Shown here in pieces: positions 10,415-54,992 of a stretch of DNA of 57,451 nt. This DNA is from Oscillospiraceae bacterium (GTDB lineage: Bacteria > Bacillota > Clostridia > Oscillospirales > Acutalibacteraceae). Positions within the stretch are counted from its first letter, which is position 1, and each line of letters opens with the position of its first letter. The DNA is taken from assembly GCA_022508845.1 (NCBI GenBank), contig JAFLUL010000003.1, positions 1-57,451 of the forward strand. Reading direction: 5' to 3'. The translations under genes were made by a program, and so were the position numbers. Below the pieces are notes generated by a model, which was given only the letters and a program-made list of their open reading frames with translations, searched no databases and had not been told where the DNA came from.

Positions 10415-11632
10415 ATGGAAATTCTTGACGCTAAAAAAGCTGTTGTTGAGGCAGGCGTTCAGCTCGTTAAAAAAGGGCTTATCCAGCGCACCTGGGGAAA
10501 TGTAAGCTGCCGTGTAAGCGATACTCAGTTTGTTATAACTCCCAGCGGAAGAGATTATCTCAGCCTCACACCCGATGATATAGTTCTTGTCAATATAGCG
10601 GACTGCTCTTATGAGGGCGATATAAAGCCCTCCTCCGAAAAGGGGATCCACGCAAACTGCTACAGACTCAGAGATAACGTTAATTTTGTTATCCACACCC
10701 ATCAGACCTATGCCTCAATTATAGGGCTTTCGGGTCTTGATATAAATGAGATAGAGGGCGAAAGCGCAAAAATTCTGGGCGATAGCGTTCCGCTCGCCGC
10801 CTACGGACTTCCCGGAACAAAAAAGCTTAAAAACGGAGTTGTTGACGCGCTTTTAAGAGCTCCCTCATCAAATGCCTGCCTTATGCTTCACCACGGCGCT
10901 CTCTGCGTTGGAAACAGCCTTCAGGAAGCGTTTACCGTTGCAAACGAGCTTGAAAAGGTATGCAAGGAGCGCATTTATAACAGATTTTATGAAATCTCCG
11001 GAAACACCGCAAAGAGCTTTTATGAAATTGCCGATTATATTGCAAAGGGACTTGCCGCAGGAAAGGACGCCCCCGAAATTGAGGCATATGATTCGGTTCG
11101 CTCCTTCGGCGCGGTTGAAATGAAAAATGTAAGCACCGGCGAAGAGCTTATGGTTGAGCTTGAGAGCGGTATGCCCATTGACGTCACCGCTCCGCTTCCC
11201 GACACCGCAATTCTTCACTGCGAAATTTATAAAAACAGGGACGATGTTAACGCTATCGTTCATTCAAAGGAAGAGGCAACTCTTGCCGCTTCAAAAATGG
11301 GGAGAACCGTTAAGCCGTTTTTGGACGATTTTGCTCAGATAGCCGGATTTACCGTTAAAAACACGGTTTATGATCCGAATAACGCTCTTCGTTCCTCAAA
11401 GAAGGTTATAAAAAAGCTGAAACGCAGAGACGCGGTGCTTCTCAAAGATAACGGCGCCGTATGCGTTGGAAAAGATGAGGATGAGGCAAACGCCGTTAAG
11501 CTTGTTGCCGAAAAGGGCTGCAAGGCCTTTACCGCCGCTGAAATTTACGGCAAAGGCAAAAACAGCATAGTTCTTGCCGAGAGCATCCTTATGAGAGTGA
11601 TTTATAAGGCAAAATACTCAAAGAAAAAATAA
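10415..11632 (+). CDS. Tandem class II aldolase/adducin-family protein, second domain degenerate
   Basis: A 405-aa protein made of two class II aldolase/adducin domains. Domain 1 (about 1-190) keeps the zinc ligands: HTHQ (VNFVIHTHQTYAS) and HHGA (CLMLHHGALCVG), plus GNVSCRV and ITPSGRDYLSL, so it should be catalytic (fuculose-phosphate-aldolase-like, or a decarboxylase/epimerase of the same fold). Domain 2 (about 225-395) aligns in outline, but HxH has become HSK (NAIVHSKEEATLAAS) and HHG has become KDNG (AVLLKDNGAVCVG), so it has lost the metal site. It starts one base after the aminotransferase stop. A single-chain active/inactive pair is unusual and may be structural or allosteric. Confidence 0.8.
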   Translation: MEILDAKKAVVEAGVQLVKKGLIQRTWGNVSCRVSDTQFVITPSGRDYLSLTPDDIVLVNIADCSYEGDIKPSSEKGIHANCYRLRDNVNFVIHTHQTYASIIGLSGLDINEIEGESAKILGDSVPLAAYGLPGTKKLKNGVVDALLRAPSSNACLMLHHGALCVGNSLQEAFTVANELEKVCKERIYNRFYEISGNTAKSFYEIADYIAKGLAAGKDAPEIEAYDSVRSFGAVEMKNVSTGEELMVELESGMPIDVTAPLPDTAILHCEIYKNRDDVNAIVHSKEEATLAASKMGRTVKPFLDDFAQIAGFTVKNTVYDPNNALRSSKKVIKKLKRRDAVLLKDNGAVCVGKDEDEANAVKLVAEKGCKAFTAAEIYGKGKNSIVLAESILMRVIYKAKYSKKK

Positions 11633-11660
11633 CTAAAAAAAATACTGCTTAAAAGAATAA

Positions 11661-11685
11661 ATGCCGACACCCGTCGGCATTTATT
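11661..11685 (+). terminator. Hairpin after the aldolase gene
   Basis: ATGCCGAC (11661-11668), loop ACCC, GTCGGCAT (11673-11680), then TTATT. The T tract is short, so it may only partly terminate, letting some transcripts continue into the TetR gene 19 bases on. Confidence 0.6.
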
Positions 11686-11698
11686 AAAAGGAGAAAAT

Positions 11699-12301
11699 AT
11701 GCCTGAAAGGATAAAATCCGAACACAAAAACGCCTCCCGTTCCAGATATCTTATAAAACACGCCTACGGGGAGCTTTTAAACGAAAAGGATCCGAAAAAA
11801 ATAACCGTAACAGACATAGTTGAAAGAGCAAATATATCAAGGGGCACCTTTTATGCGCATTACCTTGACGTTTATGATCTTAATATGGCCATTCAGAACA
11901 ATATGCTCTCAACTCTCGACAAGGCGATAAACCAAATCGGAATTGAAAACCTCGTTGCAGACCCAACCGCGGCGATTACTGCGGGACTGAAGTACCTTGA
12001 GGAAAACAAGCCGTATTTCAGCCTGTTTGTTAACTCCTCCCAGGGAAACGCGCTCATTTCGAGAATTATGGTTTATATCAAGGAGCGACTCTATTCCGTT
12101 GTTGATGAGCGTTTTTCCTCACACGACAATGAGAGAATAAAGCTCTTTGTTATGTATACGCTCGGAGCTTATAAATCAGTTATAAACTCCTGGTTTGCGG
12201 GTGAATTCAGCTACAGCGCGGAGGAATGCGCAAATAAGCTTATGCAGATATATATGACTTCCCGGCCTCCGGAAATCATTCGCCTTGAAAAAACGCAGTA
12301 A
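11699..12301 (+). CDS. TetR/AcrR-family transcriptional regulator
   Basis: A 200-aa regulator with an N-terminal TetR helix-turn-helix at about 28-60: KITVTDIVERANISRGTFYAHYLDVYDL. The C-terminal ligand-binding half is all-helical and has no recognisable specificity. It follows the aminotransferase and aldolase genes on the same strand behind a weak terminator, with AAAGGAG before its ATG. The likely target is the palindrome at 8839-8864 at the head of the cluster (inference). A strong terminator follows. Confidence 0.88.
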   Translation: MPERIKSEHKNASRSRYLIKHAYGELLNEKDPKKITVTDIVERANISRGTFYAHYLDVYDLNMAIQNNMLSTLDKAINQIGIENLVADPTAAITAGLKYLEENKPYFSLFVNSSQGNALISRIMVYIKERLYSVVDERFSSHDNERIKLFVMYTLGAYKSVINSWFAGEFSYSAEECANKLMQIYMTSRPPEIIRLEKTQ

Positions 12302-12317
12302 TTGGTACACACTAAAA

Positions 12318-12360
12318 AACGGTCAGCGGCTAAAAGCTTTGCTGACCGTTATTTTATTTA
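12318..12360 (+). terminator. Intrinsic terminator after the TetR gene
   Basis: AACGGTCAGC (12318-12327) pairs perfectly with GCTGACCGTT (12341-12350) around a 13-base loop, followed by ATTTTATTTA. It starts 17 bases after the TetR stop. Confidence 0.85.
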
Positions 12361-12392
12361 ATAGGAAACTTCTCGTTTCGCATTAAATAAAA
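12352..12392. repeat. Palindromic element, copy 2 (inverted, two substitutions)
   Basis: Left arm TTTTATTTAATAGGAAAC (12352-12369), loop TTCTC, and a right arm (12375-12392) that differs from perfect complementarity at two adjacent bases (12380-12381). The arms equal those of 11-53, and the loop is the reverse complement of that copy's GAGAA, so this copy is inverted. It merges with the T tail of the TetR terminator. Confidence 0.75.
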
Positions 12393-12451
12393 AGGTTTAA
12401 CACCCGCCGAATTTTGCCTCAGGGCAACGGCGATGGCGTAATCGAAAACGG

Positions 12452-12475
12452 CTGCGCCGCATGCGTGCGGCACAG
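12452..12475. other. GC-rich hairpin between convergent genes
   Basis: CTGCGCCGCA (12452-12461) pairs with TGCGGCACAG (12466-12475) around loop TGCG with one mismatch. It lies 20 bases past the stop of the minus-strand alpha-galactosidase gene; on that strand it is followed by CCGTTTTCG, so it may be that gene's terminator, though the T run is short. Confidence 0.4.
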
Positions 12476-12494
12476 TCGCTTCTTGTATATTTAA

Positions 12495-14672
12495 TTATAC
12501 CTCTTCAAAATAAAAGGTTTTGCTGTAGCCGTCGGATCTTTTCATATTAAACAGCGAAATTCCCGCGTTCATAAGAAGCGCGCCTGAATAAACCTCGCCT
12601 GTTTCCTCAAGGCGGTAATATTTATCGGGAGAAAGCCCCTTAAGACGGATAAAGAAATTCTGAGGCTCTTTTTGGAACTTAATGAGCACAGTCAGCAGAA
12701 CCTTTGACTTATCCTCACAAACAAACTCCCAGGCACAGCGATAGGGATCGTCCCAAGGAGAGATAATGCGGTAAAGATCTCCGCTGTGAATGAGATCATA
12801 ATGTCTGTGGTAGTCCGATATTTGCGTTTTTATCTCATTTCTTGCCTCTTCGCTTATCTTTTCGGGATCAAGTTCATATCCGAATGAACCCCACATTGCA
12901 ACATTGCGCTTAGTTTCATATGAGGAGCGAGAGGAGGCTGAAACGTGCGCTCCCTGAACAGAGGCGGGATAGCAGAGCGATGAGCCGAACTGAATGTCCA
13001 CCCTTGAAAGAGCATCGGTATTGTCGGAACACCATATCTGCGGAGAATAATACATCATTCCGGGGTCATAGCGTCCGCCGCCGCCCGAGCAGTTTTCCAT
13101 AAGAATATGCGGATAGGCTGAGGTTATGCGATCCATAAGCTCGTAGGTTCCGAGAATAAAGCGGTGATAAAATTCCTTTTGCCTTTCTTTCGGGAGAAGA
13201 GCGGAGCCTGCTTCGGTTATATTTCGGTTAAAATCCCATTTGAGATAGTCGATATCGTTAGCCTCGAGAACCTCGCTCATTATATTAAACAGATAATCCC
13301 TTACATCCTTACGGCTCATATCAATAACAAGTTGATGCCTGCCTATACTTCCCTTTCTTCCCGGAACGTGAATACACCAGTCAGGATGCTCACGATAGAG
13401 GTCGGAGTTTGGAGAAATCATCTCAGGCTCATACCATATGCCGAATTTAAGCCCCAGAGCCTTAACGCGCGAAACAAGGCTGCCTATACCGCCGCCGAGC
13501 TTTTCCTCATTTACTGTCCAATCGCCCAAAGAAGAGGTGTCGTCATTTCGTTTACCGAACCAGCCGTCATCCATAACAAACATCTCAATGCCGGTTTCCT
13601 TTGCCCATTTAGCAATATTTAAGAGCTTTTCGTCATCGAAATCCATTCCCGTGCCCTCCCAGTTGTTAACAAGCAGGGGGCGTTTTTTATTTTTCCACTC
13701 GCCTCTTATGAGGTTGTTGTTATAAAGCCTGTGAAAAGTTCGGCTCATACCGCCAAGACCTTCGTTTGAATAAACAAGCGCCGCCTCCGGAGTATAAAAG
13801 CTGTCGCCCGGCTCCAAGGTCCAGCCGAAATCATCGTAATTTATGCCCATAATAACTCGGGAGGAATTATTATAGTCCACCTCAATTTCACCCTTGAAAT
13901 TCGCGCTGTAAACAAGGTTGAATCCGTAAGCTTCGCCGAAATCCTCATTGCCGTTTTTGGAAATAAGCGCCATAAAAGGATTTTGAGCCGCTGAAGAAGA
14001 ACCTCTGCGGCTGCCTATACCCTGAGTTCCGTGGGCAAGCGGCCTTCTTTCAAAGTCTCTCTCCTGATAGTGTCGGCCGTAAAGCGTAATAAGGTCATAG
14101 TCCTTTGAATTCATATCAAGGCAAAAGCTCATAGCCCGCTCTATAACAAAGCTCTTTTCGGACGTGTTTTTAATTATCATACTGCGGGTTATCGCAGAGT
14201 GCTTTTCAAAAACCGTGTATAGAAGAATGCATTCTGCTCCGGTAACACTGTCCCGAAGAGTAAGCTCAAGAGTTTCGCATTCATCCGGTGTGTTGGCATA
14301 AAGCGCGGGAAGTCCCTTAAGAGCCGGCTTGCCTTTATAAATCTTATGAGAAACATAGCGCATATCTGTAACGGCGTTTCCGTCGGAATTTCTTATCTGA
14401 ACGCTGGCTATCCTCATATCCGCGCCTCCGTTGCAGCCTATCTCCATAGGATAGGTGTCGGGGGTAAAGGTATAGGGTTCATAGCCCTCCGGCCACGCAG
14501 AGAAGGACGCATAAACGTTTCTCTTTTCAAAGTCGGTTAAATTAACATCGGGGATGTAGGCGCCGAAATAGAGGTGAAGAGGATAACCTTCACCAAAAAT
14601 TTTGATAACATAGCTCGTGTTTTTTGAGTCAAGCTTAAAAATACGGTTTTCTTCAAAATACTTTACAGACAT
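12495..14672 (-). CDS. Alpha-galactosidase, glycoside hydrolase family 36
   Basis: A 725-aa GH36 enzyme that removes terminal alpha-1,6-galactose from raffinose-family oligosaccharides or melibiose. It has the N-terminal beta-sandwich, a (beta/alpha)8 barrel with the nucleophile Asp in IDYLKWDFNRNI and the acid/base Asp in IWCSDNTDALSR, the FVMDDGWFGKR and FGIWYEPEMISPNS segments, and a C-terminal beta domain. There is no signal peptide, so it acts in the cytosol on imported sugars. No transporter is adjacent. With HPr kinase in the window, catabolite repression is likely but I see no clear cre site. The gene stands alone between two terminators. Confidence 0.93.
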   Translation of the reverse strand: MSVKYFEENRIFKLDSKNTSYVIKIFGEGYPLHLYFGAYIPDVNLTDFEKRNVYASFSAWPEGYEPYTFTPDTYPMEIGCNGGADMRIASVQIRNSDGNAVTDMRYVSHKIYKGKPALKGLPALYANTPDECETLELTLRDSVTGAECILLYTVFEKHSAITRSMIIKNTSEKSFVIERAMSFCLDMNSKDYDLITLYGRHYQERDFERRPLAHGTQGIGSRRGSSSAAQNPFMALISKNGNEDFGEAYGFNLVYSANFKGEIEVDYNNSSRVIMGINYDDFGWTLEPGDSFYTPEAALVYSNEGLGGMSRTFHRLYNNNLIRGEWKNKKRPLLVNNWEGTGMDFDDEKLLNIAKWAKETGIEMFVMDDGWFGKRNDDTSSLGDWTVNEEKLGGGIGSLVSRVKALGLKFGIWYEPEMISPNSDLYREHPDWCIHVPGRKGSIGRHQLVIDMSRKDVRDYLFNIMSEVLEANDIDYLKWDFNRNITEAGSALLPKERQKEFYHRFILGTYELMDRITSAYPHILMENCSGGGGRYDPGMMYYSPQIWCSDNTDALSRVDIQFGSSLCYPASVQGAHVSASSRSSYETKRNVAMWGSFGYELDPEKISEEARNEIKTQISDYHRHYDLIHSGDLYRIISPWDDPYRCAWEFVCEDKSKVLLTVLIKFQKEPQNFFIRLKGLSPDKYYRLEETGEVYSGALLMNAGISLFNMKRSDGYSKTFYFEEV

Positions 14673-32042: not shown

Positions 32043-33143
32043 TCAGAGTAAGTCTGACGATTTATACAATTTCATAATCTGCGGATAAAACTCTTTTTCA
32101 TCCGCAAAAGAAGATAAACCGCCGAGCTGACTTAACGTGCCGATCAAAGGCAGATTCTCCAAATCGGTACCTTTCAATCTATCAGCTGTTGCCTGAGCAA
32201 ACTTATCAGCGAATATCACCTTTATATCTCTGCCGAAATAATCTTCAACTCGATAGTCCACCGCGTCTGTTAATCCGCTTGAATTGTGCATTTCGGCAGC
32301 CAAAGCCTGTGCCTCAACGATTTTATTCTCTCGCTGCGTTAAGGTGTTTGCCGAAACAGCCTCCTGAATTGTTTGTTTTATTCTCTCGGGAATATTAAGC
32401 CGGTTAAACGCTGTTCCGAACCATTTGCTGTAAGGCGCATAAGTGTCATTATACAAAAAACACAGTCTCATCAGGCGTTCGGCGATCCTCGCACAAACAA
32501 GCCGTGAGCCTATGTCGTCGCCGCGTTCACCGCAGCGCTTAACAAAAGCCTGCTCCGAAGCTATGATCTCCCAATTTGAAGCGATCATATATAGCTTTAC
32601 GTCCTCGGGATAATATTTGATTTTTGAGATTTTCCCCGCACAGTTAAGGCCGTCAACAAAAAACTTGCCCGATACTAACGATAAAAGTCTATGCTCTGAA
32701 AAAGAGAGCCACCTGACAGCTGATATGCTATCCAAACAGGATATTCCAAGCTGCTCAATTAAATATTCATCAAAAGTATACACAAACACCAATGGGTTGA
32801 CCCTGCCGTTGGTTATAAATTCCGGGTGCTGCACTCCGCAATCGTTTGGATCGGGCTGAGTAAAATTAACGCTGCAGCCTTTATATGTATACGGAAGGTT
32901 CTCGGATAAGGCATTAAAAATACCGTTCTTTTTTGAAATATCGGCTTCACTTAAAAACAAATAAAAGCGAGGTCCCCACATATGGTCAGTGGAAACCGCG
33001 TCGTCATAACCCAACACATCGGAGCCGTAGCCTATTAACCCGGCCGTGTATATTAGATCGGGGAAGCTTCTTTCAATAATCGGTCTTGCACAGTCATTGA
33101 AAAAGCCTTCGCATAAATCCATTCCTTTTATAAATTCAGACAT
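32043..33143 (-). CDS. DUF4037-family protein
   Basis: A 366-aa protein resembling DUF4037 proteins. The N-terminal half looks like a nucleotidyltransferase fold (AGLIGYGSDVLGYDDAVSTDHMWGPRFYLFLS, a G-S...D-x-D pattern with DAVSTDH), and the remainder is helical (ASEQAFVKRCGERGDDIGSRLVCARIAERLMRLCF). No substrate can be read; relatives are guessed to modify small molecules or proteins. It overlaps the next upstream gene, another nucleotidyltransferase-like protein, by eight bases, so the two are probably made together. A short GC hairpin follows near 32022. Confidence 0.75.
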   Translation of the reverse strand: MSEFIKGMDLCEGFFNDCARPIIERSFPDLIYTAGLIGYGSDVLGYDDAVSTDHMWGPRFYLFLSEADISKKNGIFNALSENLPYTYKGCSVNFTQPDPNDCGVQHPEFITNGRVNPLVFVYTFDEYLIEQLGISCLDSISAVRWLSFSEHRLLSLVSGKFFVDGLNCAGKISKIKYYPEDVKLYMIASNWEIIASEQAFVKRCGERGDDIGSRLVCARIAERLMRLCFLYNDTYAPYSKWFGTAFNRLNIPERIKQTIQEAVSANTLTQRENKIVEAQALAAEMHNSSGLTDAVDYRVEDYFGRDIKVIFADKFAQATADRLKGTDLENLPLIGTLSQLGGLSSFADEKEFYPQIMKLYKSSDLL

Positions 33144-33672
33144 ATCTTTCTATAAATTCCCCGTAACTCCTGATATTATTTTCAAAAACAGCCCTATACA
33201 CATCCATGCTTGAATATTTATCAAAGCCGTACTGTTCGCTTACAATTAACGAATGTTTGATATTTATAACGATCTCTTTTGCGCCGGGATCGTTGATCAG
33301 CTTTTGTTTTATATTCCGAGCGAAATCCAAGGCATTTGAAATTGTTTCATCATCAAAAAACCATATGTCAACATTCCAAAGGCAGCCTGATATTTTGGTT
33401 TCAAAGCCATGAAACCATACTTTATTTCCGTCCTTTATTTCTTCCTTTGCCTCATACCAAACAGGCTTAAAAGTGCGAACGATAAATAAAGTTAATTCAT
33501 ACAGCTTATCCTTTGACATAAATTTGTTTGAAACATAAATATCCAAATCATTCCACGCCATTAGATCCATATAATAACTGCCGACAATATACGCAGTACC
33601 GTATTTATTCAATTCTCCAAACAGACCGAAATCATAAAGCAGCTTATCGGCATTATCCTTAAAATTATTCAT
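33136..33672 (-). CDS. Nucleotidyltransferase-like protein
   Basis: A 178-aa protein whose N-terminus carries the nucleotidyltransferase pattern G-S...D-x-D (YIVGSYYMDLMAWNDLDIYVS), with a possible third acidic residue in WNVDIWFFDDE. This fold includes aminoglycoside adenylyltransferases and tRNA- or protein-modifying enzymes. No typical resistance-enzyme sequence is recognisable. It precedes the DUF4037 gene with an overlap; both carry the same fold, so they may act as a pair. Confidence 0.65.
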   Translation of the reverse strand: MNNFKDNADKLLYDFGLFGELNKYGTAYIVGSYYMDLMAWNDLDIYVSNKFMSKDKLYELTLFIVRTFKPVWYEAKEEIKDGNKVWFHGFETKISGCLWNVDIWFFDDETISNALDFARNIKQKLINDPGAKEIVINIKHSLIVSEQYGFDKYSSMDVYRAVFENNIRSYGEFIERYV

Positions 33673-33702
33673 AACCTCACCTTATTTAACAGCAAATGCA
33701 AT

Positions 33703-34182
33703 TTATTCGCAATGAATAATATCTATTTCATCTTTGCTCGGCGCTTCAAAAATCGACGCAAATTTTGCTGCGAGGTTATCATCAATATAATAAGCGCTTG
33801 TTTCTTCTGCGAGAACCGCGTTATTTCTTTTATTCATGCGAAATCTCCATATTTCATCGCTGATATCAATATAATGAAGTTCGCTTTTTATGCCGCGGGA
33901 AACATAAAATTCTTTTATTTCTTTCCGTTCTTCTCTTGTCCAAAATCCCCAATCCAGAACGATGTTTATCCCCTTTTGGATCAGCTCCAGGGATTTTCTC
34001 AGCAGATAGAGCTTTGCCTTCTCGGTATATTCATCGTGTTTATCGCCGCATGTCTGACCGAAAAGCTCAAGCATTATTTCATCAACAGAAAGAAGCACGG
34101 CATTATTTTCAACGCATAATTTCTGTGCGTAAGCTGTTTTGCCGCAGCAGATCTTTCCGCATATTAAAATCACATTCGGCAT
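33703..34182 (-). CDS. Small P-loop kinase-like protein (AAA_33 type)
   Basis: A 159-aa protein starting with Walker A ILICGKICCGKTAYAQKL; the internal segment LIQKGINIVLDWGFWTREERKE is typical of the AAA_33 group (zeta-toxin/chloramphenicol-phosphotransferase-like kinases). Such proteins phosphorylate small metabolites or antibiotics. It is six bases downstream of a methyltransferase gene and 30 bases upstream of the nucleotidyltransferase-like gene. Confidence 0.75.
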   Translation of the reverse strand: MPNVILICGKICCGKTAYAQKLCVENNAVLLSVDEIMLELFGQTCGDKHDEYTEKAKLYLLRKSLELIQKGINIVLDWGFWTREERKEIKEFYVSRGIKSELHYIDISDEIWRFRMNKRNNAVLAEETSAYYIDDNLAAKFASIFEAPSKDEIDIIHCE

Positions 34183-34188
34183 AAATTT

Positions 34189-34932
34189 TTATACCTTTCT
34201 CGCTTTTACGATCAAAAAGTTCGGTTTAATGTATTCCTTAACTATTGCAGGGAGTTCTTTTATTGCCCGATCCTCAGGAACAGGTTCATTTATTTCCTCT
34301 ATAACAAATCCCGCCGTTGTAAGCGCGTTTACAACGCCGCTGAAAGTTCTGTGGTACTTTATAACTCCGTCCACATACCAGTGAATTTTTCTCTCTCCGG
34401 GTTCATTGTAATTTGAAAATGTGTAAGATATCTTTTCACCTTTCGGATTTTTGTTAAAATGACCGTTGCCGTCAACTGTTGCCGTAATGATCGGATGCTC
34501 CTGCGAAAACAGCAATTGACCGCCGGCATTGAGAACCGAATACATATCCTTTGCAAACGAATCAAAATCTTCGATGTAATGAAAAGCAAGAGAACTGTAA
34601 ATAAAATCGAAAGTCTTATTGAGCTTTGAAATGTCCGTCATGCTCATATTTATATATTCGATCTTTTCATCGTTTGATTCGCTCTTCGCCACTGCAAGCA
34701 TTTTTTTTGAAATATCAACGCCCACAACGCTTTTTGAACCGCGGCGAACAAAATCGATGCAATTGTGACCGTATCCGCAGCCTAAGTCAAGAACCGTTTT
34801 TCCGTTTAAGTCAGGCAATAATTTTGTCATTGCAGGCTGTTCAAGCAAGTCATTATAGTTAGCTGCACCTGCACGCAGCTCCTTATACCCCTTAAAAAAG
34901 ATATCGCTATCATAAATATTCTGATTGCTCAT
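34189..34932 (-). CDS. Class I SAM-dependent methyltransferase
   Basis: A 247-aa methyltransferase with SAM motif I GKTVLDLGCGYGHNCIDF, motif II VVGVDISKKML and the later FDFIYSSLAFHYIEDFDS. It resembles small-molecule or antibiotic methylases in the UbiE/Methyltransf_11 group; the acceptor is unknown. It lies between the GNAT gene upstream and the P-loop kinase gene six bases downstream. Confidence 0.85.
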   Translation of the reverse strand: MSNQNIYDSDIFFKGYKELRAGAANYNDLLEQPAMTKLLPDLNGKTVLDLGCGYGHNCIDFVRRGSKSVVGVDISKKMLAVAKSESNDEKIEYINMSMTDISKLNKTFDFIYSSLAFHYIEDFDSFAKDMYSVLNAGGQLLFSQEHPIITATVDGNGHFNKNPKGEKISYTFSNYNEPGERKIHWYVDGVIKYHRTFSGVVNALTTAGFVIEEINEPVPEDRAIKELPAIVKEYIKPNFLIVKARKV

Positions 34933-34950
34933 AAAATCTCCTTCACCGAA

Positions 34951-35448
34951 TTATTTTACTTCAAAAAACAGCACTCTCGCCTCGGTTCCGTCATTAAAAG
35001 GCTCATCGCCTATGCAAAGCTCAAAGTTTTCGTCATACTTCTTTGCCGTTTTGTTCCACAAAACAACGCTCGCCATATTATTCTTGTGATACTTTATGTG
35101 CCATAAGCCCTTATGTTTTTCAAAAATCTGTCTGACCGCTTCTGCCCCAACACCTTGCCGTCTGAAATTATATGACACAAAAAACTCCGCCATAGACCAG
35201 TCAATTGGTCTGCTGCACTCTTTATATTTGTTAATTAAGGCAAAGCCTGCAAGAAGGTCGTCAACATAAATAAAATAGGCAAACCTGCCTTCTTCCGAAA
35301 AATAGTTGTTCAGATATTTATAACCGAACAAGCCGTTATTATCAAACTTTCTTTTGTCATACTGCGAAAACTCATAGTTATATTTTTCAAGCAAATTTGC
35401 AAGAATATCTCTTTCGCCCGAAGTTACTTTTTTTATTACTGTTTTCAT
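34951..35448 (-). CDS. GNAT-family N-acetyltransferase
   Basis: A 165-aa acetyltransferase. The acetyl-CoA binding region is visible as MAEFFVSYNFRRQGVGAEAVRQIF (motif A, R-x-x-G-x-G/A). The start at ATG 35448 follows AGGAGTGATGCCAAA; the open frame continues farther back across a hairpin and is not coding. It is first in a short minus-strand run with the methyltransferase and kinase genes. Confidence 0.83.
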   Translation of the reverse strand: MKTVIKKVTSGERDILANLLEKYNYEFSQYDKRKFDNNGLFGYKYLNNYFSEEGRFAYFIYVDDLLAGFALINKYKECSRPIDWSMAEFFVSYNFRRQGVGAEAVRQIFEKHKGLWHIKYHKNNMASVVLWNKTAKKYDENFELCIGDEPFNDGTEARVLFFEVK

Positions 35449-35475
35449 TTTGGCATCACTCCTAAAAAATAGAAT

Positions 35476-35505
35476 AGGCACCTCCGTAAAATAACGGAGA
35501 TGCCT
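35476..35505 (-). terminator. Intrinsic terminator between nitroreductase and GNAT genes
   Basis: AGGCA-C-CTCCGT (35476-35487) pairs with ACGGAG-A-TGCCT (35494-35505), with one mismatch. On the minus strand it is followed by ATTCTATTTTTT, then by the ribosome site of the GNAT gene. It may end upstream transcription or act as an attenuator for the GNAT gene. Confidence 0.7.
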
Positions 35506-47190: not shown

Positions 47191-47337
47191 TTTTAACATC
47201 TCCGTTGGCCGCAAACGGCAAATCCTGCGGTTGATTATCCACTTCATTATACATCAGAAGATACGAAAATCAAGAGAAAAAACATTTTTACTTGCTTTTT
47301 TAAGCAAAAAATATACCTTCGTAGGGGCAGAGGATAT

Positions 47338-48465
47338 TTATATTTTCGGCGTTACTCCCATATTCTCGGGATATAAATTTGCAGCCGATTGATACTCGTT
47401 TGCAAATTGATTTCTGAGCTCTTCGGGGGCGATAATTTCAGCACGAGTGCCGAAACCGAAGAAATAATCATATGCTTGTTTCGTACTGCAAAGGAATTTC
47501 AGAAGATATCTGCCGTCATCAAGCTTTTCAGGCATTTCGCTTAATACAGGGCGTGACTGAAGCACGGTGTTGTATGTATTCATACCGTGCACTGTAAGCA
47601 GGACTTTAATTTCAACCACATCTGCCAAAAGGTACTGTATGCTCCTTTCTTTAACTTTATCTTCAATTTCATTTATTTCAATTTGCGTCAACGAACCGTC
47701 CTTTGATGTTTTTCTTATTTCGCCTGTTCTTGCAATCCTGAATGAAGCTACTTTCCAGTTGCGATTCGGATCGTTTACTTTGCATCCAAGCCCCACAAGA
47801 TAAGAAAAGGTAGTCAGCGGATCTGCCATTATTTTATAAGGCTTTGCATAAAAAGTCTCTTCTTTGCTTCGGGTTTCTTTGCCTGTTGTGATTTCAAGAA
47901 TATTATTTTCGTTAATTGCAGTTCGAATCAAATTTACTTTTTCGGCATTTATTATTTTTTCACGCTCAAAGTGAGCCAATGAAGCATATCTCTCAATCAC
48001 AGCTCTGAAGAATATATTCAATCTGTATTCTCCGTATACTGTTGCTTCAAAACATTCCTGAGCAAGATATCTGCAATTATCTTTACTGAGGACTATATTA
48101 ACTCTGTAACTATCCGCAGACATCAGATCGTTGATTCTATCATTGATATCGCTGAGGTAATCCTGAAGCTCTTTGTTGAATTTTGGGGAATCCTCTTTTA
48201 TATAAACCTTTAATGCTTCATTTTTCCTGCCTAAAGCAGCATATGCAAAAACATCATAGCTTTCGCTGTAGTCAGCACACATATTATAAAAAATCAGGTT
48301 CAGTATGCCGTTCCTTTTCAGTCCGTAAGTTCTCATATCATTCAGAATAACCGACCAAGCGAAATAACTCAACCTGAGCTGAAGTTTATCGGTTCTGTCT
48401 TTTGCAAAGCATACGATGTTCCCATTCTCATAATTCTTAAAATCCAAATACTTTCTTTTTTTCAT
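47338..48465 (-). CDS. WYL-domain transcriptional regulator with RHH-like N-terminus
   Basis: A 375-aa regulator. Residues about 27-62 (KLQLRLSYFAWSVILNDM, then YGLKRNGILNLIF) look like a ribbon-helix-helix DNA-binding unit; about 185-255 is a WYL-type ligand domain whose signature reads TTFSYLVG in place of W-Y-L; and 290-375 is the WCX-like C-terminal extension. WYL proteins commonly control defence islands (BrxR, CapW), sensing nucleotides or nucleic acids; here the neighbour is a putative defence operon. ATG 48465 follows AGGAGGAAAA. It is divergent from three mini-ORFs, sharing a 173-base intergenic region with a palindrome. Confidence 0.72.
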   Translation of the reverse strand: MKKRKYLDFKNYENGNIVCFAKDRTDKLQLRLSYFAWSVILNDMRTYGLKRNGILNLIFYNMCADYSESYDVFAYAALGRKNEALKVYIKEDSPKFNKELQDYLSDINDRINDLMSADSYRVNIVLSKDNCRYLAQECFEATVYGEYRLNIFFRAVIERYASLAHFEREKIINAEKVNLIRTAINENNILEITTGKETRSKEETFYAKPYKIMADPLTTFSYLVGLGCKVNDPNRNWKVASFRIARTGEIRKTSKDGSLTQIEINEIEDKVKERSIQYLLADVVEIKVLLTVHGMNTYNTVLQSRPVLSEMPEKLDDGRYLLKFLCSTKQAYDYFFGFGTRAEIIAPEELRNQFANEYQSAANLYPENMGVTPKI

Positions 48466-48501
48466 TTTTCCTCCTGTTTGTATATATAATATGAACAGAA
48501 A

Positions 48502-48511
48502 AATGTACATT
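48502..48511. promoter_or_regulatory. Palindrome in the divergent intergenic region
   Basis: AATGTACATT is a perfect 10-bp palindrome 37 bases upstream of the WYL gene start and 74 bases before the divergent -35 box. Candidate operator for the WYL/RHH regulator; inference from position only. Confidence 0.4.
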
Positions 48512-48584
48512 ACATATAGATTATACTGCAAAACAAGGCACTTTTTAATAGGTTTATAAACAGAAATTAAAAAAAATATTTGGA

Positions 48585-48613
48585 TTGCAGTTCCCATCTT
48601 TTTGATGTATTAT
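48585..48613 (+). promoter_or_regulatory. Promoter of the mini-ORF cluster
   Basis: TTGCAG (48585-48590), 17-base spacer, TATTAT (48608-48613), then the GGGAGG ribosome site at 48625-48630. It fires away from the WYL gene. Confidence 0.6.
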
Positions 48614-48638
48614 AGCTATGAAAAGGGAGGTGAAAATA

Positions 48639-48818
48639 ATGTTTTTCGGAGACAACATAGCTGATTGGATGAAAGAAGAATCCTGGGACAGAGAATACAC
48701 AAACGAAAGCGACGGAATGCATTTCTTCGGCTCGGATGGGGATGACGGCTATACATTATGGTATAGTGATGACGGAACGCTTGACTGCAGACTTCCTACA
48801 CCGATGGATGATGAATGA
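48639..48818 (+). CDS. Small acidic protein, 59 aa, function unknown
   Basis: It begins MFFGDNIADWMKEESWDREY and ends CRLPTPMDDE. About one residue in four is Asp or Glu, and there is one cysteine, no membrane segment. GGGAGGTG lies nine bases before the ATG; a longer frame starting at 48618 would begin at the transcript start and is less likely. It is the first of three small ORFs spaced 42 and 37 bases apart, each with a strong ribosome site, in a defence-like island. An acidic partner for the two hydrophobic peptides (antitoxin or immunity type) is a guess. Confidence 0.6.
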   Translation: MFFGDNIADWMKEESWDREYTNESDGMHFFGSDGDDGYTLWYSDDGTLDCRLPTPMDDE

Positions 48819-48860
48819 AGCTAAATTTTTCAAAAAATGATTATAAGGAGGTGCAAAGAT

Positions 48861-49004
48861 ATGCTTTTTGGATTAAGTGCGGCAACCGCAACAACTCTCA
48901 CTGTGGTTGCGAATATCCTTGTTCCCGTTGGCGGAGCCTTGATTGCGCTTCAGCCTATAATGGACGCAGCCAAGAAAAAGTCTGCCGAAAAAAAGGACAG
49001 ATGA
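48861..49004 (+). CDS. Small hydrophobic protein, 47 aa, single membrane segment
   Basis: Short ORF. Starts MLFGLSAATATTLTVVANIL, continues hydrophobic to about residue 33, then ends with a lysine-rich tail (AAKKKSAEKKDR), the shape of a single-pass membrane peptide. AAGGAGGTG lies eight bases upstream. A 70-codon frame over the same bases (48815-49027) has no membrane pattern and no ribosome site. Could be a small toxin, holin-like or bacteriocin-like peptide. Confidence 0.6.
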   Translation: MLFGLSAATATTLTVVANILVPVGGALIALQPIMDAAKKKSAEKKDR

Positions 49005-49041
49005 GCGTCCGATTAATATTGATATAAAAGGAGGTTATCAT

Positions 49042-49107
49042 ATGCTCGCAGTACTCGGTATTATAGCCGTAACAGCCGGAAAGATTATACTTGCAATCAT
49101 AAAATAA
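49042..49107 (+). CDS. Tiny hydrophobic peptide, 21 aa
   Basis: It begins MLAVLGIIAV and ends IILAIIK, with a lysine in the middle and one at the end: a single short hydrophobic helix. AAAGGAGG lies seven bases before the ATG, a strong site. Such tiny membrane peptides resemble type I toxins or regulatory membrane peptides. It ends 42 bases before the stop of the convergent HEPN-like gene. Too short for certainty; the ribosome site and neighbours support it. Confidence 0.5.
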   Translation: MLAVLGIIAVTAGKIILAIIK

Positions 49108-49148
49108 CGATAAATCTGAGATTGCTATTCAGGTAATTCTAAATTTAT

Positions 49149-50936
49149 TTATTGATTGATGATTCTTGCCGTGTATACACTGTTCTCTTCTTTTGTAATT
49201 ATTTCGCAGCGTGCAATATTTTTTAGTTTTTTAGAATTTTTCATATTGATAATTGTCACCTTATACTCTTTTCCTCCAAACACAAAAAACCCCTTCTTGC
49301 CGCCTGGAGGATCAATGGTAACATCAACTTTTTTGCCTTTTAAGTCCGGAGCGTTATGCTCCGGCTCTTCTGCTCTTTGCTGCTGAGGTGTTTCTTCTGG
49401 ACCGCATTCTTTCATCAGGTCAAACAGCGAGTCATACACATTAAAAAGAGATAGAGTGTATTTTACAGTGTTATTTTCTTTATCCAACTCCTCCTTGACT
49501 ACAGCCGCCCTGATTGTATGACTTACACTGACTATTTTACTGATAATATAGTTTTTTCCTCCGCAATTTTCTATCTCTTTTTCACCGAAATTCAATATGT
49601 CCTTTCCATAAAGAATTCGGGCGTCATATTCACCGACTTTACCGTTTATGTATATTTCCGTTAGTTCACCGGAAATATTTTTTTTATAATAAGGTTCTGA
49701 TTTAGGCTTAAAATCCACTATTTTGCTGCCCGGTCTGCGCTGATTCAGTCGGTAATCAGCGTTCGCAGTGCTTCTATACACACCGGGACTGACTTGAACT
49801 TCGGTGTTTTCGTAAGAAGGATTTATTCCGTTTCTGTCCTGTTTCAAACAATCGGAAAAATCAATTTCATCGGAAGATTGATTCAGGGGGACATTATCAT
49901 AATAGGCGCCGGGCAAATTTTCCGAAATATAACCGGCAATTTGCGCCGCAGTGTAATCTTTACTTTCATTTGACGCAGCTGAGCTTTTCTGTTTTTTGAC
50001 CTCATCTTGATGTTTCCTTGTATTTTTCATCGCTTTGATATCTTCCAGATATATCTTAAGCTCGCTGTTCATTTTAAAAACAGTAAATGCTTTTTCAAAC
50101 AGTATACCCGGCAGCATAGAAAAATTACTTTCTTCTCGAGCATCGGCTATTGTTCTTTTCAATATCTCTTTCAGAAATTTGCTGAAAAAGCGTTCTGTAA
50201 CAAATTCTTTGCTCTCATCCGCTTCCTCATTGAGTTCAGTCACTTTATCGAAGAGCTTTTTATTTTTACTGCGATAAAAAACAATAAAATTTTCGCATTC
50301 CGAGTATGAAAGGGGCGTATAATCTTTTTTATTATCATCCACAATATTATAATCGTATTGACGGATCCAATCAAACAGTATAGTCCTATCTGAACAATAG
50401 CAGTCAATCAAAATTTCCTCAAATACTTCAATCAGATCATTTTTATTTTGAGCACAGTGACAAACAAAAGTATTAAATGAATTTACAATGCTTAGTTTTG
50501 TTTTTAAGAGCCACTCGTTTGCTTTTTCTTCTGAGAAATGAGGATAATCGCAAATTGTTTCATTATATTTTCTGATATTCCAGCAGGAACCACCCAAATC
50601 TATATTATTGTTATGAACAAAACAATGCCGTATGTTTTCGGTTTTCCTTATTTCGTTATATAATTTTTTTTCTTCATCACCGATGAACCCAAATTTATTA
50701 TCATTCTCATTTTTTATGATCTCACTGCATAAATAATTAGAATCATGGCAAAAGCGATAGAGATTTTGAAGCTCTGCAAAAAAATATGCGTCATCGCTTA
50801 ACCCGGAGGTGTCAAACGGAGTAAAATAGGCAAACATAAACAAATGCGGTGCTATTTCTTTTTTAATCAGGTTGTTGATTTCTTCAGATTTTTTCTGCAA
50901 ATCTATCTTTTTTGAAAGTTCAACCACATTGCTCAT
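49149..50936 (-). CDS. Putative HEPN-motif protein, partner of the NTPase
   Basis: A 595-aa protein, not recognisable overall. In the helical N-terminal region, NIRHCFVHNNN (residues 101-111) gives R103-x4-H108, the Rx4-6H active-site pattern of HEPN RNases; flanking helices fit that fold. About 325-380 is low-complexity and polar, and the last 60 residues (VDVTIDPPGGKKGFFVFGG onward) look like a small beta domain. It starts at ATG 50936, sharing ATGA with the stop of the 1186-aa gene and preceded by AAGGAGGAAC; a longer frame to 51020 is spurious. The tight coupling says the two act together, plausibly as toxic RNase plus sensor (inference). Confidence 0.6.
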   Translation of the reverse strand: MSNVVELSKKIDLQKKSEEINNLIKKEIAPHLFMFAYFTPFDTSGLSDDAYFFAELQNLYRFCHDSNYLCSEIIKNENDNKFGFIGDEEKKLYNEIRKTENIRHCFVHNNNIDLGGSCWNIRKYNETICDYPHFSEEKANEWLLKTKLSIVNSFNTFVCHCAQNKNDLIEVFEEILIDCYCSDRTILFDWIRQYDYNIVDDNKKDYTPLSYSECENFIVFYRSKNKKLFDKVTELNEEADESKEFVTERFFSKFLKEILKRTIADAREESNFSMLPGILFEKAFTVFKMNSELKIYLEDIKAMKNTRKHQDEVKKQKSSAASNESKDYTAAQIAGYISENLPGAYYDNVPLNQSSDEIDFSDCLKQDRNGINPSYENTEVQVSPGVYRSTANADYRLNQRRPGSKIVDFKPKSEPYYKKNISGELTEIYINGKVGEYDARILYGKDILNFGEKEIENCGGKNYIISKIVSVSHTIRAAVVKEELDKENNTVKYTLSLFNVYDSLFDLMKECGPEETPQQQRAEEPEHNAPDLKGKKVDVTIDPPGGKKGFFVFGGKEYKVTIINMKNSKKLKNIARCEIITKEENSVYTARIINQ

Positions 50937-53900
50937 TTGCCGTTCCTCCTTTTCCACAAACCCACGGAGTGTGCGGCAAATTTGGTGTAGCCGATGCCCA
51001 GGCCAAAGCCTTCGGGACATTCACCCTCCTGAAGCTCTTTGTCCATATTTGGATTATAAAAATGTGCTAATACATGGCTTCCGTTTATTTTTATATAAAG
51101 ATTGTTCTTATCTCTTTTTACTTCCCCGGAATACTTTTTCGGCTCACCTTTTTCATCACATATCATAAACGGCACAAACATACGATTGCTGTACATAAAA
51201 TCTTTGTCAACTATATCCCTGCGTATTTTCTCGGCTTCATCCAATGACACTCCGAGCTGAATTCCTGCAAGTACTCCCAAAAGTAAAATGATCGGACTGT
51301 TGAATTCGCCTGACGCTTTTTTATAATCATCGCAAAGTTTGCTGATTTTTTCCCATCCCTCTTTTTCTTTGATGCATGTCTGCCGCCATTCCGTTTGTCC
51401 CGTTTTGCTTGCAAGCGGTCTTCCATTATAATAAAGCCATGTAATTTTTATCAGAAACGCTATCGCATATTTATTGGTCTCAACACACCTGTAATTATCC
51501 TTCTCATTCATAAAGTCCATAACTTTTTTGCAGATTTCTTTTTCTCCGTTGGTTATAACTTCCTTTGAAAGAATAGTTCCCACTTCGTTTCTGCAAATAT
51601 AAGTAATGGCAGCCGGATTATTTGAGCTGCACATAGCGTCAAACAACTCATAAAACTTTTTGGCCGGAGAATCAGGATTGCAATTCTTCCTGTTTATAAG
51701 ATCATCCAACGTTACGGGAGTCTTGGTCATATTTGTAACCGTAGTTATCCATCCGGACAGCGAATCACTTCCGTTGGAACCTCTGTTTGAAATGTTTTCC
51801 GGACCGATATCCCAGCAATGATCCGCGATATCCATCACTTCACATGCGTATTTCATTCTCTGCTGCTCATCTTTTTCGGCTTCATAAGCGACCTTAAACG
51901 CTTTGAACAGAGCGATATATGAATAACCGTTGCGACTATCCCTTTTTATTGCTTCTGCAAGCCTCTCGTATATGGAACCGAATTGATATATTTGCTCTGA
52001 GATATCATTATCACATTCACAACCCAATTCTTTCAGCTTTTCTGTCAACGATTTTATACTATAAAAGCAGTTTGCGATTTCAACAGCAGCATTATTAAGG
52101 TCTTTTGAAATGGAATTAACCTTGTGATAACTGCTCTCATACTGTTCTTTGAGCGAGTTGTCAATATCCACGGCATATTTAAAAATGTCTTTCATCTTTT
52201 CAAGCCGGGCATTGCAATCTTCTGCCGAATCAACCTTGTCATTATAACCGTAAATTTCCCTTGTGTAAGTAATATAAAGCAGCGCAAACTTATAGTCCTT
52301 TATTTTATAATTTTTAAATTCGTCGGCGATTTTCTTTATATATCTGCAAAAAGTCTCCCAGTGGGTATTAAATGGGTTATTATCTTTATTGCGGTATTTA
52401 TCGTATCTTGAGTTCGGCCCCACCAATCTGAATAATTCCAGAAGACTTTCCGCTAATTTTTCATCGTATAATCTGTTTTTAAATATTTCAACCAGTTTTT
52501 CTATACAATTTCTTTGCTTTGTCTGCTCAGAGTCATCATTGCGCTGAAGATACAATTCCGCCTCTCTGGCATTTCTATAACGCAGGACATAGTTGCCGTC
52601 GGAGCTTTGATAATAATCTATCCATGGAATGCTGCGTGCAATCGCAGAACAGATTTTTTCGCGTGTTATCAGATCGCTGTCGGGACAAATCAGTGCAGAT
52701 GCGATATGGCTCGGCATCTCCAATTTAAATTTGCCAAGCAATGCCACACATAAATTCAACGAATCAATATCATATTTTTTATCGTCTTTATTTTTCTTCT
52801 TTATTTCCTCCGGGTCAATACCGAAAGCATCCAGCAATTCTTCAAACGGATTAAACACATTAGGCGGGTTAAATTTATCAATAATATTATGAATTTCATT
52901 TGATACAAAATCATCGCCTATATATTGCTCTCTTGCTAAACCTTCGTTCATTGAATTACGGAGAATGTTGATAAGTATATAGAAATAATCGGAAATATCA
53001 TTTGCATCGATATTTTTGTCCTCTTCAAATAATCTGAGGCGGGTATCCCAATCATCGTTTATAGAAGTATACTGCCTGAATTTTTGGATAAGCTCCGATT
53101 TTTCATCCCCGCGCATATCACGGCGCGCTCTTATATATACATATCCGGGGTTGCTAAAATCTGCAATATCATAATTGTCAGAATTGTATATTCGGCCAGG
53201 CTTGTTGTTTGAATCGAACTCAAAGAAATTTACTGCATCTTTGCAGTCAGCTTTAGGCATATTCATTTTTTCGTCTATATAAGCACTGCACAGCAAAACG
53301 ACCTTTCTGCCGAGATTTTGTAAATTCATAAATAAATTGACTGCGTTATCGCTCACCGACTTATATGATGAGCAATCCCATACAACAAGCAGCGATACAT
53401 TTGAGCATTTATTAACAATATACTCTATCATCTTTGAAAGCTCTTTAAATTCCGCGCTGCTTTCATTGCTGAGAGAGGCATCGCCGTTTTTTATATAAAG
53501 AACGGGGTGCTTTTTTTCAGCAAAAACACGGTAAGCAACAGAGGCAATAGTTACGCTTTTACTGCTTCCGGGAGGGCCAAAAAGTATAATGGGCTTCAGT
53601 GCTTTTTTTCCGTTCAGCATTTTCTGCACATAATAAAAAACTTCATCCTCATAATAACGCTTAATATGAAATGTTGGTGTGGAAATATAACCGTACCACT
53701 GCGGTTTATCTGAGGAGGTTCCCTCCAGAAAACGCATATACAGATGCTCCTGCAGCACATTCGGATTGATCTTGTATACTTCTTCACGGGATAGCAATGT
53801 GGCAATATTTTCATATCTGAATAAATCCTGAGGATTAAATTCTATCGGTTTTCCGTCCACGAAGAAAAAGTCAGAGGATGTATCAACATCAAAATAACCG

Positions 53901-54493
53901 TCACCTTCAGAAATCTCCTCATTTATTGTTTCGTACCAATCCAATGCTTCAGAAAGTTTTTTTTCCGAAAAAGCGATTTCGTGTTGTTTATTTTCAGAAA
54001 ATGCTTTAAGATTCTCATACTCAGAGCAATCCTTATTCATTCCCCAAATCTGAACATTGGAATAAGGGATATCCTGAAGAATATCCTGTAAATTATTATA
54101 TGGATAATCCTCCTTATCCGGATTATAACCTATAATTACCAAACAATTTTGAAGTGAAAGACGGTCGGGGAGGCTGTTCATAATATTACTGGATTTACGC
54201 CAATTGATACGATCACCTGTTTTTTCGCCAATTCTGAAAATCGGCAGCTTTTTTTTATTGAATAAAAGTTGTTCTTTTTCGGAATAAAAGGCTTCTCTAA
54301 AATCTCCGGCATTAAAATATTTGTGGATATCGGCAGATTGACTTGTTATAACACATGCCCAGGGTAGCCCCGCAACCGATTCAATTTCTTCTCCGGATGC
54401 ATCCTGACCTATATAAAGAATAATATGGTTGAGTTCAAAGCGTTCATATAGATCGGTTAACCATTTCTGTGCAGAATTTCCTATTTCCGGCAT
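50933..54493 (-). CDS. Large P-loop NTPase with degenerate SIR2-like N-terminus (STAND-like)
   Basis: An 1186-aa protein. Residues about 1-155 resemble a SIR2-like fold: LPWACVITSQSADIHKYF where active members have TTNYD, LPIFRIGEKTGD where they have a LHG, and CLVIIGYNPDKEDYPY like the closing VGYSxxD strand. The catalytic Asn and His are not seen, so it may be inactive. Walker A is GPPGSSKS (306-313), Walker B about VVWD (370-373), with a following KVVLLCSAY strand. From 480 on it is helical, repeat-like, ending in a short beta segment (GFGLGIGYTKFAAHSVGLW). This matches STAND/Avs-type architecture, where the C-terminal repeats sense invaders. GGAGG precedes the ATG. No close named family is known to me. 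Confidence 0.7.
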   Translation of the reverse strand: MPEIGNSAQKWLTDLYERFELNHIILYIGQDASGEEIESVAGLPWACVITSQSADIHKYFNAGDFREAFYSEKEQLLFNKKKLPIFRIGEKTGDRINWRKSSNIMNSLPDRLSLQNCLVIIGYNPDKEDYPYNNLQDILQDIPYSNVQIWGMNKDCSEYENLKAFSENKQHEIAFSEKKLSEALDWYETINEEISEGDGYFDVDTSSDFFFVDGKPIEFNPQDLFRYENIATLLSREEVYKINPNVLQEHLYMRFLEGTSSDKPQWYGYISTPTFHIKRYYEDEVFYYVQKMLNGKKALKPIILFGPPGSSKSVTIASVAYRVFAEKKHPVLYIKNGDASLSNESSAEFKELSKMIEYIVNKCSNVSLLVVWDCSSYKSVSDNAVNLFMNLQNLGRKVVLLCSAYIDEKMNMPKADCKDAVNFFEFDSNNKPGRIYNSDNYDIADFSNPGYVYIRARRDMRGDEKSELIQKFRQYTSINDDWDTRLRLFEEDKNIDANDISDYFYILINILRNSMNEGLAREQYIGDDFVSNEIHNIIDKFNPPNVFNPFEELLDAFGIDPEEIKKKNKDDKKYDIDSLNLCVALLGKFKLEMPSHIASALICPDSDLITREKICSAIARSIPWIDYYQSSDGNYVLRYRNAREAELYLQRNDDSEQTKQRNCIEKLVEIFKNRLYDEKLAESLLELFRLVGPNSRYDKYRNKDNNPFNTHWETFCRYIKKIADEFKNYKIKDYKFALLYITYTREIYGYNDKVDSAEDCNARLEKMKDIFKYAVDIDNSLKEQYESSYHKVNSISKDLNNAAVEIANCFYSIKSLTEKLKELGCECDNDISEQIYQFGSIYERLAEAIKRDSRNGYSYIALFKAFKVAYEAEKDEQQRMKYACEVMDIADHCWDIGPENISNRGSNGSDSLSGWITTVTNMTKTPVTLDDLINRKNCNPDSPAKKFYELFDAMCSSNNPAAITYICRNEVGTILSKEVITNGEKEICKKVMDFMNEKDNYRCVETNKYAIAFLIKITWLYYNGRPLASKTGQTEWRQTCIKEKEGWEKISKLCDDYKKASGEFNSPIILLLGVLAGIQLGVSLDEAEKIRRDIVDKDFMYSNRMFVPFMICDEKGEPKKYSGEVKRDKNNLYIKINGSHVLAHFYNPNMDKELQEGECPEGFGLGIGYTKFAAHSVGLWKRRNGK

Positions 54494-54566
54494 ACAAAAA
54501 CCTCCATCTTTGTATTGACTTTGTTTGCAGATATAAAATGATGATTTATTGTTTTAACATTATATT

Positions 54567-54595
54567 ATTATATTATCTTTACTTATTATTTTCAA
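54567..54595 (-). promoter_or_regulatory. Promoter of the NTPase-HEPN operon
   Basis: Minus strand TTGAAA (54590-54595), 17-base spacer, TATAAT (54567-54572), about 73 bases before the NTPase start codon. Confidence 0.7.
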
Positions 54596-54605
54596 GGAAT
54601 AAGAC

Positions 54606-54665
54606 TATCGTTGATATACAATGATATGCAAAACCACTCTGCAGCATATGATTCTCGCAACGATA
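54606..54665. promoter_or_regulatory. 60-bp nested inverted repeat upstream of the NTPase operon
   Basis: TATCGTTG (54606-54613) with CAACGATA (54658-54665) outside, and ATATGC (54624-54629) with GCATAT (54644-54649) inside. It lies 11 bases upstream of the -35 box. It could be a regulator site or a structured RNA; nothing else is seen in the 320 bases between the operon and the tRNA genes except the operon promoter and the tRNA terminator. Confidence 0.5.
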
Positions 54666-54769
54666 TACATCGCTTTTTTATTATAACAGCAAACGAATAT
54701 TAAATCAATTATTTATAAGCGAAGCAACTTCTTTATTCTTTATTCATTGAAAATCCTTTTGAATAAATA

Positions 54770-54813: not shown

Positions 54814-54888
54814 TGGCTGGGGAGGCGGGATTCGAACCCACGCATACAGCAGTCAAAGTGCTGTGTCTTACCGCTTGACGACTCCCCA
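54814..54888 (-). tRNA. tRNA-Gln (anticodon TTG)
   Basis: 75 bases including an encoded CCA. Acceptor TGGGGAG/CTCCCCA pairs fully; the anticodon loop is CTTTGAC (TTG, reads CAA) on stem ACAGCA/TGCTGT; the T arm carries GGTTCGAATCC. It is second in a two-tRNA transcript. Confidence 0.93.
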
Positions 54889-54914: not shown

Positions 54915-54992
54915 TGGGGTGGGTGATCGGGGTCGAACCGACGACCTCCAGGGCCACAACCTGGCACTCTAACCAACTGAGCTACACCCACC
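54915..54992 (-). tRNA. tRNA-His (anticodon GTG)
   Basis: Acceptor GTGGGTG/CACCCAC plus the histidine-specific extra G-1 (54992) opposite C73, then encoded CCA. Anticodon loop TTGTGGC (GTG, reads CAC/CAU) on the CCAGG/CCTGG stem; D arm AGCTCAGTTGGTTAGAGT and T arm GGTTCGACCCC are standard. Confidence 0.95.

Follow-up and report, generated by a model that had tools for sequence, protein, structure and literature searches.

Which genes of an AT-rich block in an Oscillospiraceae genome belong together, and do they act against phages? The block lies on contig JAFLUL010000003.1 of assembly GCA_022508845.1 (genome of 2.36 Mb, 85% complete), of which we analysed positions 1 to 57,451, hereafter the window. 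It encodes a large STAND-type P-loop NTPase, a protein with the R-x4-H motif of HEPN RNases, a WYL-domain regulator and three mini-proteins, and a sequence-only reading, made from the letters and open reading frames (ORFs), had taken all six genes for one immune system. Our analysis favors a smaller unit. We propose, with a probability of roughly 0.6, that the two large genes are a two-gene abortive-infection system, in which a STAND sensor controls a HEPN RNase in trans and so brings about growth arrest.

The two large genes are arranged as had been read from the sequence. On the minus strand, the NTPase gene, encoding the proposed infection sensor, occupies 50933–54493 (ORF 54493-50933, 1186 amino acids [aa]), and the HEPN-like partner gene, encoding the proposed RNase effector, occupies 49149–50936 (ORF 50936-49149, 595 aa). 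They share an ATGA at 50933–50936, and a Shine-Dalgarno (SD) sequence, GGAGG, stands in front of the partner gene. Ahead of the NTPase gene is the region's best-scoring promoter-like site, TTGAAA-17-TATAAT (54567–54595, minus strand), in agreement with the earlier claim that the pair has its own promoter; across the region, sites of this kind exceed chance only mildly (36 versus 27.6 expected, standard deviation 5.8).

If the two genes act together, they should be found together elsewhere. Single-sequence searches failed to address this because the proteins are rare and divergent. Queried alone, the window NTPase matched only itself in 394 genomes of the order and no relative in genome contigs, viral contigs, plasmids or phages, and the window partner had no relative in viral or genome contigs; the contig scans were seeded by exact eight-residue patterns and detect close relatives only. 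The first relative, locus L028, was met by chance, on a contig with a WYL homologue that also encodes an NTPase homologue. Stepwise profiles recovered two true pairs in the 394 order genomes (the window and G249), as well as G462 in 391 genomes of the class, G809 in 43 genomes of the genus of G249, G927 in 179 genomes of the phylum, and G1122 and G1073 in 135 genomes of the family of G809. Two more family searches (32 and 9 genomes) added no pairs, and because the genome samples overlap, these counts are not to be added. Short P-loop-only matches, with frames of 217–462 aa and judged by length, were left out before seven pairs were counted. The homologous NTPases had no match in plasmids (queries L028, L046 and L070), phages (L028 and L046) or viral contigs (L028 and L070), nor did profile A1 in viral contigs.

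All seven NTPase genes have a partner gene immediately downstream on the same strand. The six NTPase homologues beyond the window are 18–26% identical to the window copy (alignment A6), with tblastn E-values, from a small database of the pair loci, of 6e-79 (L047), 9e-75 (L077), 7e-38 (L070), 1e-15 (L046), 4e-11 (L028) and 9e-5 (L075). The two genes overlap by ATGA in L047 (NTPase 9332-13006, partner 13003-14028) and by 8 nucleotides (nt) in both L077 (NTPase 12433-8825, partner 8832-7801) and L075 (NTPase 3228-1180, cut by the contig end, partner 1187-378). Gaps of 1, 3 and 15 nt separate them in L046 (NTPase 11194-7829, partner 7827-7087), L028 (NTPase 1309-5037, partner 5041-5928, with a TTG start) and L070 (NTPase 11588-8232, partner 8216-7329), respectively; these gaps are those for the starts chosen. 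For the relatives' NTPases, the start positions are accurate to within a few codons. The sequence-only reading had named synteny of homologues as a check, and for the two large genes the outcome, together in seven of seven loci, supports a conserved pair.

Such tight coupling would equally suit a toxin-antitoxin-like arrangement, in which a HEPN toxin is restrained by the NTPase and freed by stress or element loss, not by direct phage sensing. An integrase lies beside one pair, and HEPN toxins are common in toxin-antitoxin pairs (PMC3710099; this and the other articles cited below are represented by the portions available to us). We nevertheless consider this explanation doubtful, since a protein of ~1100–1240 aa that combines a STAND NTPase with a long helical region far exceeds what an antitoxin needs, and since the NTPase resembles the sensors Avs5 and SAMD9.

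The motifs of the large protein support its placement with the STAND NTPases, to which it had been likened from the sequence. Its Walker A motif, GPPGSSKS (residues 306–313; 53555–53578, minus strand), keeps the lysine in all six aligned homologues that include the region, and a WD, the hydrophobic strand ending in D that serves as a STAND criterion, is conserved in six of six as well. In Pfam scans, the L046 NTPase exceeds the cutoff of nSTAND_NTPase5 (37 bits; cutoff 34), the window NTPase falls under the gathering score (E 7e-4, 19.9 bits), and four of the seven match this family at E≤1. One of the seven matches nSTAND3 (E 0.13), and nSTAND_NTPase5 scores better. A sequence search of the PDB with the NTPase returned general P-loop matches only.

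We modeled the NTPase with AlphaFold on a four-row alignment, obtaining a low-confidence structure (mean predicted local distance difference test score [pLDDT] 49.2). The top Foldseek row is human SAMD9 (E 1.6e-13), followed by two Avs5 filament chains (E 4.5e-8 and 1.2e-7) and, at rank 4, Avs4 (E 3e-5). Template modeling scores (TM-scores) in these rows are at most 0.17 by query length, so the rows support the order of the domains and not the precise fold. In so far as the low-confidence model can be trusted, that order, a SIR2-like domain, a STAND NTPase and a helical sensor region, may be shared with Avs5, which has an active SIR2 NADase and an nSTAND3 (PMC12931631). The window family differs from Avs5 in that it has no catalytic Asn where aligned, is nearest to nSTAND5 and always has a separate HEPN-like gene downstream of it.

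The N-terminal alpha/beta region (residues 1–200; 53894–54493, minus strand) is SIR2-like by fold only, as judged from DSSP of the model, Foldseek and a motif alignment of six homologues. For the TxND motif we followed the residues given for PaAvs5 (PMC12931631) and placed it by eye, the alignment having no reference sequence; its third position holds Q, S, S, S, A and L in the six homologues. The SIR2 domain claimed earlier survives as a fold-level resemblance only; the catalytic Asn is absent at the aligned place in all six N-termini. This bears on another reading of the pair, in which the SIR2-like domain would be the effector, depleting NAD+ as Avs5 does, with the R-x4-H protein as an accessory. 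The Avs5 filament row at E 4.5e-8 favors it, as does the tolerance of Avs5 SIR2 domains to motif changes, e.g., NG for HG (PMC12931631), but with no Asn at the expected place in six homologues we find it unlikely.

The resemblance to SAMD9 extends over a variant SIR2-like domain, a STAND P-loop and helical repeats, which in the model follow one another as they do in SAMD9, and the authors of the PaAvs5 study note a like resemblance of PaAvs5 to SAMD9 (PMC12931631). Human SAMD9 acts as a tRNase under STAND control (PMC13245274). The core architecture of the family includes an AlbA/tRNase domain in the same chain, which some members have lost, and lacks the Walker A lysine (PMC5445408). In the window family, by contrast, that lysine is present in six of six and not replaced by glycine, and the candidate RNase is encoded by a gene of its own. 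Scanned with Pfam, the NTPases gave no AlbA match at E≤1 (0.5 in one scan). The conserved C-terminal tail, with a G-x-P motif in the alignment (50936–51241, minus strand), is possibly an OB fold; no OB profile matched the seven C-terminal segments in Pfam, and the tail has low confidence in the model. As a tentative extension of our proposal, the pair may be a bacterial counterpart of SAMD9 in split form, with an apoptosome-like SIR2-like/STAND sensor and a HEPN subunit in place of the fused tRNase, such that sensors and RNases would be exchangeable.

The partner protein has been identified as a HEPN candidate by its motif. Exactly one R-x4-H occurs in each of the seven partners (at residues 103, 99, 99, 97, 94, 119 and 102), and in the window it reads RHCFVHN (residues 103–109; 50610–50630, minus strand). 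An N directly follows the motif in six of the seven, and the residue after the R is H, T, E, G, T, S and S. HEPN domains are defined by an Rx4-6H where helix 3 ends, with a mostly polar residue after the R (PMC3710099), and the motif and spacing of the partners, as read from their sequences, fit this definition. For comparison, we took 102 mechanical ORFs of 200–650 aa from ten loci, some of which are not genes; R-x4-H is found in 24 of them and R-x4-HN in one. The partners are 14–23% identical to the window copy (alignment A7), with tblastn E-values of 2e-4 for L047, 0.005 for L077 and >0.1 for the other four.

Several observations weigh against a HEPN RNase governed by a STAND sensor. Besides the low confidence and low TM-scores of the NTPase model, the partner model has a mean pLDDT of 38.9, with R103-H108 at the end of a helix spanning residues 87–109; members of the superfamily have a four-helix fold, the motif closing helix 3, and metal-independent RNase activity. 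Profile searches place the partner in no named HEPN family, and no curated HEPN profile matches it; with the superfamily it shares the R-x4-H and the mostly polar residue after the R. Of the HEPN assignment made from the sequence alone, the signature motif is borne out, in seven of seven partners. The lone control ORF with R-x4-HN also carries it within residues 86–124. BLASTP finds no meaningful similarity between the L028 and window partners, and alignment A5 puts a K-x4-R of L028, not its R-x4-H, at the motif's place; two MAFFT runs and alignments A3 and A7 do align the L028 R-x4-H with the motif. Because its motif is out of register in A5, the L028 partner may be a degenerate copy. PADLOC, run on four of the seven pairs, gave weak rows only (best E 0.0043, PtuA1, in L046), and three loci (L047, L046 and L028) have housekeeping-like neighbors by eye, which speaks against a strict defence-island rule as well.

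Other searches with the partner were uninformative as to family: Foldseek with its model returned nothing at E≤0.001, a PDB sequence search nothing meaningful, and profile searches no NTPase match. The window partner is the longest of the seven and alone has a beta-rich C-terminal extension (49158–49691, minus strand; strands at residues 416–593 of the model), for which Foldseek lists weak OB/S1-like rows (best E 0.028).

How would the pair work? That the genes are consistently paired and tightly coupled, that the Walker A lysine is intact and that the R-x4-H is conserved can be read from the sequences themselves; from phage sensing and oligomerization to complex formation and the activity and substrate of the RNase, the steps below are what we infer. 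In the large protein, a degenerate SIR2-like N-terminus would be followed by the P-loop NTPase and, toward the C-terminus, by a long helical sensor region; the protein would probably be inactive while nucleotide is bound. Its C-terminal part would probably recognize a phage component, upon which the NTPase would oligomerize and switch on the co-translated HEPN-like partner. The partner would then cut RNA, perhaps tRNA, and the infected cell would stop.

Each element of this scheme has a precedent. HEPN-STAND fusions are noted for bacteria, Bacillus cereus among them, and some of the fusions carry cold-shock-type OB domains (PMC3710099); the two modules are together in both cases, but are fused there and encoded by two genes here, where the NTPase also has a SIR2-like domain. 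The nSTAND2 systems have two genes and HEPN or GT4 effectors (PMC8195603). As that source presents them, they resemble our pair in joining STAND to a HEPN effector across two genes, and differ in that both genes encode STAND, with HEPN fused to the inactive one, whereas the partner here has no NTPase match. The combination of a degenerate SIR2-like STAND protein with a stand-alone HEPN partner was not found in the available portions of PMC3710099, PMC8195603, PMC12931631, PMC13245274 or PMC5445408. With precedents for every element (the HEPN-STAND fusions, nSTAND2 with HEPN, Avs5 and SAMD9) and none found for the combination, we regard the pair as a new variant. No published description of it was found in the literature searched, a weak sign of novelty given that most subscription journals and bioRxiv lay outside that search.

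If our proposal is correct, the pair is a compact two-gene immune system whose sensor and RNase are separate proteins, and it ties Avs-type bacterial sensors to human SAMD9, an antiviral tRNA-cutting protein. The split design allows sensing and cutting to be assayed apart. Should the comparison with SAMD9 also be right, the pair would reveal how the STAND-controlled shut-off of translation in bacteria relates to that in animals.

The neighborhoods of the pair bear on whether it serves in defence at all. A clear defence or mobile context is seen in two of the seven loci: in L070 the pair adjoins Cas5b, Cas7b, Cas8b and Cas6b (type I-B) and a C5 DNA methylase, and in L077 a phage-type integrase and an HTH_17 gene. 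A regulatory or stress-related NTPase pair outside defence would suit the housekeeping-like neighbors at some loci, but the sparse, patchy distribution among species and the cas, methylase and integrase contexts make it very improbable. In L070, the pair is separated from the type I-B cas genes by two genes (L070:5666-7291) without a Pfam or PADLOC match, the larger with an HExxH-like stretch by eye. Three large consecutive genes (425, 835 and 1075 aa) before the L047 pair (L047:1944-9112) have no Pfam match and are possibly a mobile element.

In the window, the description of an AT-rich block beside tRNA genes proved accurate. The G+C content of 47260–54700 is 36.6%, versus 44.2% for the whole window, and a tRNA-Gln (54814–54888, minus strand) lies at the block's edge with its 3' end pointing toward the block, next to a tRNA-His (54915–54991, minus strand). 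A direct repeat joining the tRNA-Gln end to the block's left side was looked for and not found. Of the six pair loci scanned (all but L075), the window and L046 carry a tRNA just ahead of the NTPase gene and on its strand, and the other four have no tRNA. When 47.3–54.5 kb was compared with 26 genomes of the genus by DNA search (11 candidates scored per genome; no protein search covered the whole genus), the matches listed outside the window's own genome were a scrap of 35 bases from the NTPase gene (G410) and one of 37 bases from the WYL start (G396). The genus also has oxidoreductase matches; at the nine loci read, their gene context is a different one, and they are probably paralogues. A second acquired block is possible at 33136–35481, an AT-rich cluster (GC 34–40%) of nucleotidyltransferase-, kinase-, methyltransferase- and acetyltransferase-like genes by eye.

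Do the remaining four genes of the block belong to the system? The WYL regulator reported near the pair is indeed there, at 47338–48462 (minus strand, 374 aa); ATG 48462, which has its own SD, is the likelier start. Scored on the 419-aa ORF 48597-47338, it matches PADLOC WYL (E 2e-14) and Pfam WCX (32.7 bits; cutoff 23.9), and no helix-turn-helix profile matched the protein in the Pfam scan. The mini-ORFs are on the plus strand, at 48639–48818 (59 aa, acidic, SD GGGAGG), 48861–49004 (47 aa, hydrophobic, SD AGGAGG) and 49042–49107 (21 aa, hydrophobic, SD AGGAGG). Three SD-led ATG ORFs of at least 20 aa in 48463–49148 are far above chance: 2000 dinucleotide shuffles gave a mean of 0.04, none reaching three. 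The earlier reading was right about these small ORFs but not about their place, which is between the WYL and R-x4-H genes, opposite in strand to both and convergent with the latter, and not between the two large genes.

In the proposed six-gene system, the WYL protein would be a switch, and the membrane peptides and the HEPN protein joint effectors. One AT-rich block holds all six genes, and a WYL homologue lies ~4 kb from the L028 pair. Within the flanks compared, however (loci of 12.8–19.9 kb, L075 only 3.2 kb; tblastn E≤0.1), that WYL homologue is the only one in the six other pair loci, and homologues of the mini-ORFs are found in none. A match of mini-ORF 2 in L070 (E 0.098), on the opposite strand and inside the pair, was taken as chance. 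Mini-ORF 1 had no relative in viral contigs; mini-ORFs 2 and 3 were compared with the fetched loci only. A single system of all six genes is thus very unlikely, also because WYL genes with small ORFs exist where no homologue of the NTPase or partner was seen.

WYL homologues occur in 12 of the 394 order genomes, own genome included. Among six WYL loci scanned, divergent SD-led small ORFs of hydrophobic or glycine-rich look are found in L026, L029 and the window; L030 and L031 each have a different sort of divergent SD-led ORF (109 and 200 aa), and L028 has none. Neither L029 (only 3.8 kb) nor L026 has an NTPase or partner homologue of note, and from this pattern the WYL gene and mini-ORFs look like a neighboring and probably separate regulated unit. 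In L029:411-2650, the WYL homologue diverges from a chain of glycine-rich or hydrophobic small ORFs with good SD sites, like the unit in the window. In L026:9255-10950, the divergent neighbors of the WYL homologue are a small DUF697-like protein (E 0.012 in Pfam, below cutoff) and an SD-led ORF of 76 aa. This L026 region adjoins type III cas genes (PADLOC III-D models), and repeats inside nearby ORFs resemble a candidate CRISPR array. At L026:4484-7318 is a 944-aa protein that has a P-loop by eye and whose kinase part matches PD-T4-6 models (E 1.4e-21); it adjoins a 397-aa protein and the WYL gene.

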